64,000 nt of DNA from Halobacillus salinarum. Its GTDB lineage: Bacteria > Bacillota > Bacilli > Bacillales > Halobacillaceae. Below, piece after piece: positions 29,853 through 35,238 of this stretch. The number at the start of each line of letters is the position of its first letter. Positions within the stretch are counted from its first letter, which is position 1. Where the stretch lies: NCBI RefSeq assembly GCF_022919095.1, contig NZ_CP095073.1, positions 2,480,001 to 2,544,000 of the forward strand, read 5' to 3'. Made by a program: the position numbers and the translations under genes. The notes under the pieces were generated by a model. It was not told the origin of the DNA. It searched no databases and worked only from the letters and a program-made list of their open reading frames with translations.

Positions 29853-31103
29853 TTATTGATCATCCGCTAAGCGGAAACCGCTGAATTGCCATCTCATATC
29901 AGGATAGAAAAAATTTCGATAGGTGAGGCGGATATGCGACCTTGGCGTCACACAAGATCCCCCTTTTAATACAAATTGGTTCGCCATAAACTTAGCATTA
30001 TATTCTCCCAGCGAACCGGCTAACGGTTTGCTCCTTGGATAGGGGACATAGGGGCTCTGCGTCCACTCCCAAACATCTCCGAATGCTTTATGGAACGCAG
30101 CTTCTTCACTATAGTGAGAATGCGGCTGGTAGTAACCATCTTCCATAAAGTGACCATCCAACGTATGGGTTTCCAACGCATACTCCCATTCCTGTTCTGT
30201 TGGAAGCCTCTTTCCTGCCCAACGTGCATAAGCATCAGCTTCATAATAGCTCACATGCGAAACAGGCGCATTTAAATCTAACTTCGTTAATCCAGCCAGA
30301 GTATAGCTATACCATTCTCCCTCCTGTTTTTCCCAGTATTGAGGATGCCCCCAATGTTCCTGATGTACTTTCTGCCAGCCATCCGACAGCCAATGTTCCG
30401 GATGTTCATAGCCACCATCATTGATAAACTGGATAAATTCCCAGTTGGTTACTGGTCGGTTAGCCAATTGATAAGGTGCGAGATATGTCTTGTGGCGAGG
30501 GTTTTCATTGTCAAAGCAAAATCCTTCACCGTCATATCCTACCTGCACGAGTCCTCCATCAATTTTTTCAAACTGAAGTGCCGGCACACTTTCATGCGGA
30601 TGTTGGTTGTTATGAAAAGCCGGATAGAGGGGATTAAAGGAAAAATTATATTTAATGTCCATTAGAATCAGTTCTTGATGCTGCTGTTCATGTTGAAGCC
30701 CGATTTCTACCAGTTCCTGTATCTCCTTTTTTTCTCCATGAGTAACTAGTAATTTACTCATTGTTTGATCGACACGCTTGCGGTATTCCATCGTTTCATC
30801 AACAGTGGGGCGGGTGATAAGTCCTCGCCTGGCCTGTGGATGAGGAGTTCCTACCGTTTCATAATAGGAATTAAATAAGTAAAGGAACTCTTCATTAAAG
30901 TGCTGATAGTCAGGAACAAACTTTTCTAATATAAACTTCTCAAAAAACCAGGTTGTATGGGCCAGGTGCCATTTAGCAGGGCTGACATGAGGGGCAGCCT
31001 GTACGACAAAATCCTCCGTTTTTAGGTTAGACACGAGTTTTTCACTATAGTTTCGCACTTTCTGATACTGGTTTTGAAGATTAACTTCTGTAGTCGTTTG
31101 CAT
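29853..31103 (-). CDS. egtB: ergothioneine/ovothiol-type sulfoxide synthase, EgtB-like
   Basis: Non-heme iron enzyme that joins trimethylhistidine to a thiol (gamma-glutamylcysteine or cysteine) with O2. 416 residues: N-terminal DinB-like domain with the iron ligands H49 (HLAHTTWFFE), H138 and H142 (HEQQHQE), then an FGE-sulfatase domain with GYEHPEHWLSDGW, WAGKRLPTEQEWEYA, FGDVWEWTQSPY, FVLKGGSCVTPRSHIRLTYRNFF and FSGFRLADD. No methyltransferase domain follows, so it is EgtB rather than OvoA. The companion EgtD (histidine methyltransferase) is not adjacent, which leaves the pathway incomplete in this window. Monocistronic. Antioxidant role inferred. RBS AGGAGTGGATAC. Confidence 0.85.
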   Translation of the reverse strand: MQTTTEVNLQNQYQKVRNYSEKLVSNLKTEDFVVQAAPHVSPAKWHLAHTTWFFEKFILEKFVPDYQHFNEEFLYLFNSYYETVGTPHPQARRGLITRPTVDETMEYRKRVDQTMSKLLVTHGEKKEIQELVEIGLQHEQQHQELILMDIKYNFSFNPLYPAFHNNQHPHESVPALQFEKIDGGLVQVGYDGEGFCFDNENPRHKTYLAPYQLANRPVTNWEFIQFINDGGYEHPEHWLSDGWQKVHQEHWGHPQYWEKQEGEWYSYTLAGLTKLDLNAPVSHVSYYEADAYARWAGKRLPTEQEWEYALETHTLDGHFMEDGYYQPHSHYSEEAAFHKAFGDVWEWTQSPYVPYPRSKPLAGSLGEYNAKFMANQFVLKGGSCVTPRSHIRLTYRNFFYPDMRWQFSGFRLADDQ

Positions 31104-32913: not shown

Positions 32914-32942
32914 TTGACGATGAAATATATATTTCATAAACT
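32914..32942 (+). promoter_or_regulatory. SigA promoter with an 18-bp palindrome in its spacer
   Basis: TTGACG (32914-32919), 17-bp spacer, TAAACT (32937-32942). The palindrome ATGAAATATATATTTCAT (32920-32937) fills the spacer, so a bound repressor would block RNA polymerase. It serves the aminotransferase and RpiR genes. Confidence 0.75.
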
Positions 32943-32951
32943 TTATTTATA

Positions 32952-32967
32952 TGAAACATCTATTTCA
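32952..32967 (+). promoter_or_regulatory. Second operator copy in the aminotransferase leader
   Basis: TGAAACATCTATTTCA repeats the TGAAA-N6-TTTCA pattern of the upstream palindrome (TGAAATATATATTTCA). Centres are 31 bp apart, three helical turns, and this copy covers the first transcribed bases. The adjacent RpiR regulator is the obvious candidate binder. Confidence 0.7.
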
Positions 32968-32975
32968 AAAAGGAG

Positions 32976-34355
32976 ATGTCGAAGATTCCACAACTATCAC
33001 CCTTACTCTTTGAAAACGCAACAAGGTCCAGAGATTTTTTTGACCATGCCAAAGAGGTTATTCCCGGAGGAGTAACAGCTCAAATTAAACATTTTGATCC
33101 GCATCCAGTAGTGATGGAGAAAGGCGACGGGAGCAAGCTTTATGACGTCGACGGAAATCAGTACATCGATTATTTGCTTTCTTACGGTGCTTTGATTCAC
33201 GGACACGGTCACCCTAATGTTATCAATGCGGTTATGAACCAAATGAAAACCGATGGAAGTACTATTTTCGGCACCCCTCATCAAAAAGAAGTAGAAATGG
33301 CAGAAAAACTTATTCATCTATACCCCGGAATAGAAATGGTACGGTATACGAATTCTGGTTTAGAAGCGACCCTGCTTGCTATCCGTACAGCACTTGCAGT
33401 CACCGGCAAGCCAAAGCTCGCCAAGTTTGAGGGACATTATCACGGCGGTCACGACCAAGTGCTTGTCAGTGTCAACCCTGGGAAAAGAGAACGAGGAAAA
33501 CCGGAACAGCCTCAGGCAGTACTGGAATCCACCGGTATTCCTGATTACTATGTAAAAAATACGGTGGTTCTGCCTTTTAATCAATTGGATGCTTGTGAAA
33601 AGATTCTCAGAGAGCAGGCTGATGAAATCGGCTGTCTTATTTTGGAGCCTGTTCAAGGCGGCTTCATTCCTGCTGAAAAGGTTTTTATAGAAGGAATTCG
33701 AAAGCTGACAGAAGAATTAAATATTGTCCTGATTTTTGATGAAGTAAAGACTGGTTTTCGTGTTGGACTAGGAGGGGCGCAGGGGGAATATGGAATTCAG
33801 CCTGACCTAACCACCCTCGGAAAAGTACTGGGCGGAGGATTTCCAATCGGAGTATTAGGAGGAAGTAAAGAGATTATGGCGTTGACTTCGGGCGAAAAAC
33901 GAGACTTACTTTCCACAGGTGCAGAGCAAAGAGGAGGACCGGATGCTGTTTTTCACAGCGGTACGTATAATGGTCACCCAACAGTACTTGCTGCAGGATT
34001 AGCTACGATACATGAGCTCGAGAAAGAGGAAGCCATGGATGAACTATTTCGTAAAACACAACATCTCCGAGATGGTCTGGAAAACGTTTACCGCTCTTAT
34101 GGTCTCCCCATGCAGACCATTGGAACAGGCAGCATCTTTAATCTTCTGTTAACCGATAAAAAGGTATTGAACTACAGGGATTTAAGCAAGGCAGACTTCA
34201 CATTAAGAAGAGAAATCGACCTTCAGCTGCTTGCTCAGGGGATCTATACGAAGCCGCTCAATCGTTATTCTATGTCTACCGTTCATTCTGAAGAAGATCT
34301 AGAAAGTACGATTCACTGTCATGAGCAAGCCATTAAAGAGGTTCTCAAGAAATGA
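32976..34355 (+). CDS. class III aminotransferase, glutamate-1-semialdehyde aminomutase-like
   Basis: PLP enzyme of up to 459 residues. Motifs: IPGGVTAQIKHFDPHPVVM, YDVDGNQYIDYLLSYGALI, YTNSGLEATLLAIRTA, FEGHYHGGHD, LIFDEVKTGFRVGLGGAQ (PLP ring Asp), TTLGKVLGGGFPIGVLGG (Schiff-base Lys), and FHSGTYNGHP. It resembles HemL-related transaminases but has a different flanking region, so a degradative omega-aminotransferase is likely. The ATG 32976 directly abuts AAAAAGGAG, leaving no spacing; ATT 32985, in frame, has 9 bases. RpiR starts 34 bases after its stop and the genes share a promoter. Substrate unknown; a BCCT importer is divergent. Confidence 0.85.
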   Translation: MSKIPQLSPLLFENATRSRDFFDHAKEVIPGGVTAQIKHFDPHPVVMEKGDGSKLYDVDGNQYIDYLLSYGALIHGHGHPNVINAVMNQMKTDGSTIFGTPHQKEVEMAEKLIHLYPGIEMVRYTNSGLEATLLAIRTALAVTGKPKLAKFEGHYHGGHDQVLVSVNPGKRERGKPEQPQAVLESTGIPDYYVKNTVVLPFNQLDACEKILREQADEIGCLILEPVQGGFIPAEKVFIEGIRKLTEELNIVLIFDEVKTGFRVGLGGAQGEYGIQPDLTTLGKVLGGGFPIGVLGGSKEIMALTSGEKRDLLSTGAEQRGGPDAVFHSGTYNGHPTVLAAGLATIHELEKEEAMDELFRKTQHLRDGLENVYRSYGLPMQTIGTGSIFNLLLTDKKVLNYRDLSKADFTLRREIDLQLLAQGIYTKPLNRYSMSTVHSEEDLESTIHCHEQAIKEVLKK

Positions 34356-34389: not shown

Positions 34390-35238
34390 GTGGCAGATAT
34401 ATATAAGCAAATCGCCAGTAATATGGAAGACATGAGCAATGCCCAGATAAAAATTGCGGAATATTTAATCAATCATTCTTCTTCTGCACCTTTTTTGACG
34501 GCTGGCAAATTAGCGAAAATGTCAGAAGTCAGTGCCGCTACAGTAGTAAGGTTTGCAGCATTTTTAGGTTTTTCTGGCTACGCAGAATTACAAGAAGAGC
34601 TTCAAAATTCGGTTCAACAACAGCTGACTACCTTTCAAAGGTTGAAACTTTCTCAAAACGTGTACAGTAAAGAAACAGGAGTCTATGAAATATTCCAAGA
34701 TGACCTCGCAAATTTGCAAAGGACAATGGAAAACTTAGATGCTCAAGTTTTTCAACAAGCAGTAGATACGATTTTAAGAGCAGACCGTATCTTTATACTG
34801 GCCAATCGAAGTGCCGCATCATTAGGAATGTTCCTAAACTACTATCTAGGCATGATGTTCGAACACGTCGTACAATTGCAGTCGTTGGAAAATGCCTCGG
34901 AGAAACTAGCCGATCTAAGTGAATCAGATGCAGTAATTGGACTAAGCTTTTCCCGTTACACGAAGAGTACGGTTGAGATGTTTGCATACGCAAATTCTCA
35001 TCATGCATCAACCATTGCAATAACGGATCAACTTCGTTCACCGTTGACTCCTCATGCAGATATTTCACTGCTTGCTGCAAGTCAAATGCCCAGCTTTATC
35101 GATTCATTCACTGCTCCCTTAAGCTTAATAAATGCATTACTAACGGTAATAGGCAAAGAAATGCAGACAGATATTCAACATCGTCTCCAAGGTCTGGAAG
35201 ACATATGGAATCACTTCAACGTATTTCACCATTCTTAG
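34390..35238 (+). CDS. MurR/RpiR family transcriptional regulator
   Basis: About 282 residues. Residues 1-75 are the HTH_6 domain (AQIKIAEYLINHSSSAPFLTAGKLAKMSEVSAATVVRFAAFLGFSGYAELQ), 105-250 the SIS sugar-phosphate-type sensor domain (RIFILANRSAASLGMFLNYYL, DAVIGLSFSRYTKSTVEMF, TIAITDQLRSPL). Members usually sense phosphosugars; here the genetic link is to amino-compound metabolism, so its ligand may differ. I start at GTG 34390, placed 6 bases after AGGAGGG; an ATG 69 bases upstream lies inside the preceding gene and lacks a site. Two matching palindromes occur upstream of the operon, and it probably represses its own operon and the divergent BCCT gene. Confidence 0.85.
   Translation: MADIYKQIASNMEDMSNAQIKIAEYLINHSSSAPFLTAGKLAKMSEVSAATVVRFAAFLGFSGYAELQEELQNSVQQQLTTFQRLKLSQNVYSKETGVYEIFQDDLANLQRTMENLDAQVFQQAVDTILRADRIFILANRSAASLGMFLNYYLGMMFEHVVQLQSLENASEKLADLSESDAVIGLSFSRYTKSTVEMFAYANSHHASTIAITDQLRSPLTPHADISLLAASQMPSFIDSFTAPLSLINALLTVIGKEMQTDIQHRLQGLEDIWNHFNVFHHS

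Follow-up and report, generated by a model that had tools for sequence, protein, structure and literature searches.

Background

Escherichia coli MurR, a member of the RpiR family of transcriptional regulators, binds two adjacent repeats. It is a tetrameric repressor that adjoins its target genes, and RpiR crystal structures are tetrameric according to PMC12713135, in whose comparison all four structurally studied regulators sense phosphosugars. The Streptococcus pneumoniae regulator NanR, composed of an HTH and a SIS domain, activates sialic acid genes and responds to ManNAc-6-phosphate. As described in PMC12713135, its nanE site, TCTGAAAGTACTTTTAGA, contains a TGAAA half-site and has arms 4 bases apart, the effector stabilises the NanR tetramer, and the authors propose that the tetramer bridges to a second contact at a half-site 23 bp downstream. 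For Pseudomonas RccR, an RpiR regulator with KDPG as effector and a wide carbon regulon, a 15-bp palindrome occurs twice upstream of aceE, with half-sites TGTAGT/ACTACA and 68 bp between the copies (PMC5489143). The RpiR family, palindromic operators and multi-site promoters are already known.

The locus described here lies in a 64-kb stretch of Halobacillus salinarum DNA (hereafter the window) and comprises an aminotransferase gene, the gene of an RpiR-family regulator (rpiR) and, upstream of both, two palindromes of the form TGAAA-N6-TTTCA. The regulator shares the HTH and SIS architecture of NanR and the palindromes share the TGAAA half-site. Unlike the NanR arrangement of one full palindrome and a half-site, however, there are two full palindromes spaced at about 31 bp, the arms are 6 rather than 4 bases apart, and the effector loop of the protein is changed. 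RccR resembles the present case in having two palindrome copies, but differs in half-sites and spacing. MurR is a sugar regulator (MurNAc-6-phosphate), whereas the protein studied here scores 42.9 bits against a MurR cut-off of 408. What is new is the operator and an orphan subgroup of the known RpiR family; a literature search of titles and the starts of abstracts found no description of either.

The operon and its twin palindromes

The features of the promoter region and the two genes are listed in Table 1. The regulator carries an N-terminal HTH_6 domain (PF01418; residues 5-77, 54.5 bits against a cut-off of 28.3) and a C-terminal SIS domain (PF01380; residues 128-252, 72.7 bits against 25). 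In addition to the MurR model, it falls below the NCBIfam cut-offs for HexR (77.1 vs 296) and AlsR (57.6 vs 400).

Table 1 Features of the aminotransferase-rpiR locus in the window
Feature	Position	Strand	Remarks
-35 hexamer TTGACG	32914..32919	+	predicted aminotransferase-rpiR promoter; read from the letters and a promoter scan
Operator site 1 (putative) TGAAATATATATTTCA	32921..32936	.	exact TGAAA-N6-TTTCA inside the -35/-10 spacer; motif conserved
-10 hexamer TAAACT	32937..32942	+	read from the letters and a promoter scan
Operator site 2 (putative) TGAAACATCTATTTCA	32952..32967	.	exact TGAAA-N6-TTTCA just past the predicted start
Class III aminotransferase, glutamate-1-semialdehyde-aminomutase-like	32976..34355	+	Aminotran_3 206 bits; 459 aa if ATG 32976 is the start
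RpiR-family regulator (HTH_6 + SIS)	34390..35238	+	282 aa, GTG start; proposed binder of both sites

An earlier note on this DNA had claimed that a palindrome fills the 17-bp spacer of the promoter and that a second TGAAA-N6-TTTCA copy lies 31 bp downstream, just after the start site. Both claims hold. The spacer (32920-32936) is occupied by an 18-nt perfect palindrome, ATGAAATATATATTTCAT (32920-32937), of which 17 bases constitute the spacer and the final T serves as the first base of the -10 hexamer. Site 2 begins 31 bp, or three turns, after the beginning of site 1 and follows a transcription start predicted from the -10 position at about 32949. The arms of both sites are 6 bases apart and enclose the centres ATATAT and CATCTA, respectively. 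The promoter scores 9/12, and promoter-like sites in the 241 bp scanned number 2 against 0.4 expected.

The window contains two exact copies of TGAAA-N6-TTTCA, both at this promoter. Copies with at most one mismatch number 8 against 8.5 expected, which is chance level; because the window count alone therefore proves little, orthologous loci were compared. The 4.24-Mb genome holds exact copies at 24 places (10 for a control pattern), and the only closely spaced pair among them is the one at the aminotransferase-rpiR promoter. By a simple ORF test, 18 of the remaining 22 overlap ORFs and four are intergenic (L046, L048, L062 and L065); a search for a wider regulon through these exact sites found none of the 22 paired, and further targets are not indicated. 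Site 1 also fits the stricter pattern TGAAAYWWWWATTTCA, which has no second occurrence in the genome.

Conservation of the palindromes in orthologous loci

Orthologues of the regulator were collected from 19 of 44 family genomes (E up to 1e-30), 90 of 397 order genomes (1e-60) and 37 of 299 class genomes (1e-55), these genome sets overlapping, and from four named contigs of Cytobacillus, Pseudalkalibacillus, Bacillus and Halobacillus. Of the order matches outside the family 61 of 85 were taken in, and of the class matches outside the order 20 of 32. Loci with both genes and a reachable aminotransferase start numbered 75 including the window, or 69 non-redundant loci, again with the window. L027 was dropped as coming from the same genome as L042; L036, L042 and L043 were excluded from the 69 because the match ended short of the aminotransferase start, and L114, L128, L135, L140 and L141 lacked an aminotransferase match.

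To obtain an unbiased count, every palindrome with arms of 5 bases and a gap of 0-12 (13,312 in total) was scored in the 160 bp upstream of the aminotransferase, with expectations taken from first-order Markov resamplings of each upstream stretch. TGAAA-N6-TTTCA ranked first, occurring in 46 of 69 loci against 0.12 expected; the top palindrome of any kind in 100 shuffles reached 7 loci at most. With one mismatch allowed, the motif was found in 67 of 69 loci (about 3 expected) and not found in two. Pairs spaced at 29, 30 or 31 bp, with up to two mismatches per site, were present in 54 loci against 0.21 expected and not found in the other 15; in the majority of loci at least one of the two sites is degenerate. 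The consensus over the loci reads ATGAAATA(A/T)ATATTTCAT. Among the 20 loci from beyond the order, counted without a shuffle control, an exact site was seen in 9, a site with at most one mismatch in 16 and a pair in 11, while L148 had no site even with two mismatches. The earlier note had tied its proposal to the palindromes being conserved along with the gene order and had suggested searching near orthologues; the top rank of the motif and the 54 pairs agree with that expectation.

Proposed control of the operon

As the arrangement recurs beside the regulator in many related bacteria and is absent from the relatives examined that have no such regulator, the twin palindromes are very likely its landing site. 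The reading that we favour, and consider probable, is that they form a two-site operator through which the RpiR protein, bridging both sites as a tetramer, represses its own operon until its SIS domain binds a small molecule that lifts the repression. One RpiR dimer would occupy each TGAAA-N6-TTTCA site and, with the two sites on the same face of the DNA 31 bp apart, two dimers would probably join through their SIS domains into a tetramer that holds both. Bound in this manner, the protein would lie over the start region as well as the -35/-10 spacer and would most likely repress both the aminotransferase and rpiR itself. Direct binding is an inference, as are a bridging tetramer with one dimer per site, which agrees with the presence of two in-phase sites at a near-fixed distance, and repression, which agrees with the placement of the sites over the spacer and the start.

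The earlier note had also stated that a divergent BCCT gene shares the region. The gene divergent from the aminotransferase in the window is indeed a BCCT transporter gene, but it is not a conserved neighbour: no divergent BCCT gene was found in the other orthologous loci scanned, among which only L041 has a distant BCCT homologue, located downstream. The BCCT gene is thereby ruled out as a conserved partner. Control of this gene by the twin sites in this one genome, through an overlapping minus-strand promoter, is unlikely but deserves the most weight among the alternatives. A minus-strand promoter-like sequence (TTGAAA at 32968-32963, a 17-bp spacer and TAAAGT at 32945-32940) overlaps site 2 and faces site 1, and deeper relatives have sites between the aminotransferase and a divergent KamA-like gene. 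This sequence scores only 9/12, however, the divergent gene is missing from the other loci scanned, and a terminator-like hairpin (32908-32885) stands between the promoter and the BCCT gene.

That hairpin, on the minus strand downstream of the weak minus-strand promoter (32968-32940), could possibly serve as a leader attenuator. The BCCT gene is closely followed, on its own strand, by an EgtB-type ergothioneine biosynthesis gene (29853-31103, minus strand; 552 bits against a cut-off of 360), and a related betaine is a conceivable substrate of the BCCT protein.

The position of the pair relative to the promoter was analysed in 51 loci that have both a pair and a scorable promoter, one promoter per locus being chosen by score. 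The first site lies at -16 from the -10 hexamer, filling the spacer as in the window, in 10 loci (window included) and at +5, overlapping the last -10 base, in 17; the pair lies wholly from the last -10 base downstream in 17 of the 51. Positions -16 and +5 together account for 27 loci against 0.8 by random placement (at most 5 in 2000 trials), in a control that ignores the overlap of A+T-rich sites with hexamers, and in the other 24 the pair is at neither position. As a single promoter was picked for each locus, positions around -65 are likely to stem from a neighbouring pair. The two favoured positions are 21 bp (two turns) apart, whereas the spacing within the pair stays at about three turns. 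This retention of the 29-31-bp pairing while the pair shifts along the promoter offers a testable signature of tetramer bridging.

These positions bear on the sign of control. That the sites belong to RpiR, with the protein activating the operon instead of repressing it, is rather improbable: site 1 in the spacer and site 2 past the predicted start are repressor-type positions, as are the 17 pairs lying from the last -10 base downstream, and the promoter spacer has the standard 17 bp. Activators do occur in the family, where GlaR, ClaR and GlvR are described as such in PMC6528599 and S. pneumoniae NanR in PMC12713135; the latter source presents the other reported RpiR regulators besides NanR as all repressors.

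Association of the sites with rpiR

The strict pattern TGAAAYWWWWATTTCA occurs at 19 places in the 44 family genomes, 16 of them at the aminotransferase-rpiR locus; of the three others, one is in a genome (G024) without rpiR. Strict sites are present in 14 of 19 family genomes with rpiR and in 1 of 25 without it (Fisher P 1.3e-6, a nominal value as related genomes are not independent). A search for the pair from DNA alone in the 397 order genomes matched six genomes; in five of them, including that of the window, the match is at the aminotransferase-rpiR locus or operon, and in the sixth (G158) it is distant from rpiR. The near-exact pair is thus found at the locus in 5 of the 90 order genomes with rpiR, a low number because most loci deviate from that pattern at one site or at both. 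In loci where the aminotransferase and rpiR genes are divergent (L039-L041), the sites lie between both genes, so that the sites stay with the two genes when the gene order changes.

Four family genomes (G003, G006, G007 and G023), all of one genus, have the aminotransferase but no rpiR orthologue anywhere in the genome and no detectable remnant at the locus. Their aminotransferases are 61-68% identical, and their neighbourhood is shared with the rpiR-bearing loci L037, L038, L044 and L045. TGAAA-N6-TTTCA is absent upstream of all four aminotransferases, where the best matches have 3, 3, 3 and 2 mismatches, like those in shuffles. The four loci, being from one genus, may represent one or two losses. 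At the level of sequence, this comparison shows that the sites exist, occur in pairs, are conserved and accompany rpiR. A widespread RpiR subgroup thereby gains an operator that is well supported and has natural negative controls.

The same results make it very unlikely that another transcription factor, possibly a global one, recognises the palindromes. Many operators are palindromes of about this size, and binding by RpiR is here a prediction; yet 16 of the 19 strict places are at this locus, the sites are absent from all four aminotransferase loci without rpiR, and the other 22 exact sites of the genome, 18 of which overlap ORFs, include no pair. The 14-bp CcpA cre WGWAARCGYTWWMA, in the form given in PMC6528599, is not matched either, the arms being 6 rather than 4 bases apart and the central CG absent. 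A global regulator was rejected in view of the dependence on the locus and on rpiR. Two further readings, in which the palindromes function as RNA hairpins or arise by chance in A+T-rich DNA, can be set aside. Site 2 would be transcribed, and the window holds no more one-mismatch copies than chance predicts; but site 1 is located within the promoter, which does not transcribe it, and the orthologue counts rule out chance.

Effector pocket of the regulator

SpNanR contacts the phosphate of its effector through Ser135, Ser179, Ser181 and Thr184, as described in PMC12713135. We paired these residues with those of the regulator by phmmer alignment to the 8tx9 chain, treated as SpNanR on the grounds that its residue numbering agrees with PMC12713135, and compared 83 orthologues. 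Ser135 aligns with Ala142, which is alanine in 81 of 83 orthologues; Ser179, Ser181 and Thr184 align with Ser186, Ser188 and Thr191, serine being found at position 186 in 58 and at 188 in 35 of the 83. Arg140, Ser141, Arg189 and Tyr190 are invariant among the orthologues, the last two replacing Gly182-Ser183 of NanR; the RpiR structure 3sho has a similar R-Y. The gene neighbours in relatives include a 2,3-aminomutase-like enzyme (19 loci), a fused TRAP permease (26), a TAXI binding protein (21) and, in single loci each, glutamine- and glutamate-type transporters.

Because the SIS pocket is altered and the neighbours are of an amino-acid type, a carboxylate is favoured; our guess is that an amino or keto acid is a likelier effector than a phosphosugar. 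As the subgroup sits with amino-acid enzymes and its effector region has changed, the operator provides a direct assay for the ligand. A broader and more tentative model, to which we give slightly less than even chances, is that of a Bacilli-wide RpiR subfamily with a remodelled SIS domain (Ala142, Arg140 and Arg189-Tyr190). This domain would detect a carboxylate, namely an amino or keto acid and perhaps one related to beta-amino acids or glutamate. The tetramer would grip paired 16-bp sites with a constant spacing of three turns and would thereby control the GSAM-like aminotransferase as well as, in deeper branches, a KamA-like aminomutase.

Deeper relatives carry four-site arrays spaced at about 30-40-30 bp. 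In L119, L120 and L132 these arrays separate the aminotransferase from a divergent KamA-like radical SAM gene; in L121, L136 and L145 they are located beside other genes. In L076 a pair stands upstream of an operon that contains, besides the aminotransferase and rpiR, genes for a glutamine-type ABC transporter and a carbon-nitrogen hydrolase. Of 19 KamA-like genes, 17 have a site with no more than one mismatch within 250 bp, a count made without a shuffle control. TAXI solute-binding genes were rejected as targets: 22 were listed, four with less than 60 bp upstream were set aside, and of the 18 scanned only that of L089 had such a site within 250 bp.

The KamA-like gene (2,3-aminomutase family) is found near rpiR in 19 loci, for instance at 1351-2568 of L118, and the representative from L114 scores far under the curated cut-offs for lysine and glutamate 2,3-aminomutases.

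The aminotransferase

The aminotransferase of the operon falls below the HemL cut-off (TIGR00713; 385-386 bits vs 527.3) and just passes the broader subfamily model NF000818 (398.4 vs 398). Its best PDB match is 3k28, a GSAM (303 bits), followed by weaker matches to D-phenylglycine and beta-phenylalanine aminotransferases. The GSAM motifs NSPVR and LSWGPL are replaced by TAQIK and LSYGAL, and the lysine of the former and the tyrosine of the latter are kept in at least 90% of 78 aminotransferase orthologues. Two bona fide HemL genes elsewhere in the genome (G000:C1 2005426-2006685 and 3360180-3361445) pass the cut-off.

The Shine-Dalgarno sequence AAGGAG directly abuts the ATG at 32976 (32970-32987, plus strand), and in L030 the codon in this abutting position is CTG. 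An ATT located 9 nt after GGAG (32985 here) is present in all five sequences compared, namely the window and its close relatives L028-L031. AUU is therefore a possible start codon of the aminotransferase. In L042 (4461-5712) and L043 (4392-5839), from the relatives G028 and G034, the aminotransferase is split into two ORFs, and both loci retain rpiR and the upstream sites.
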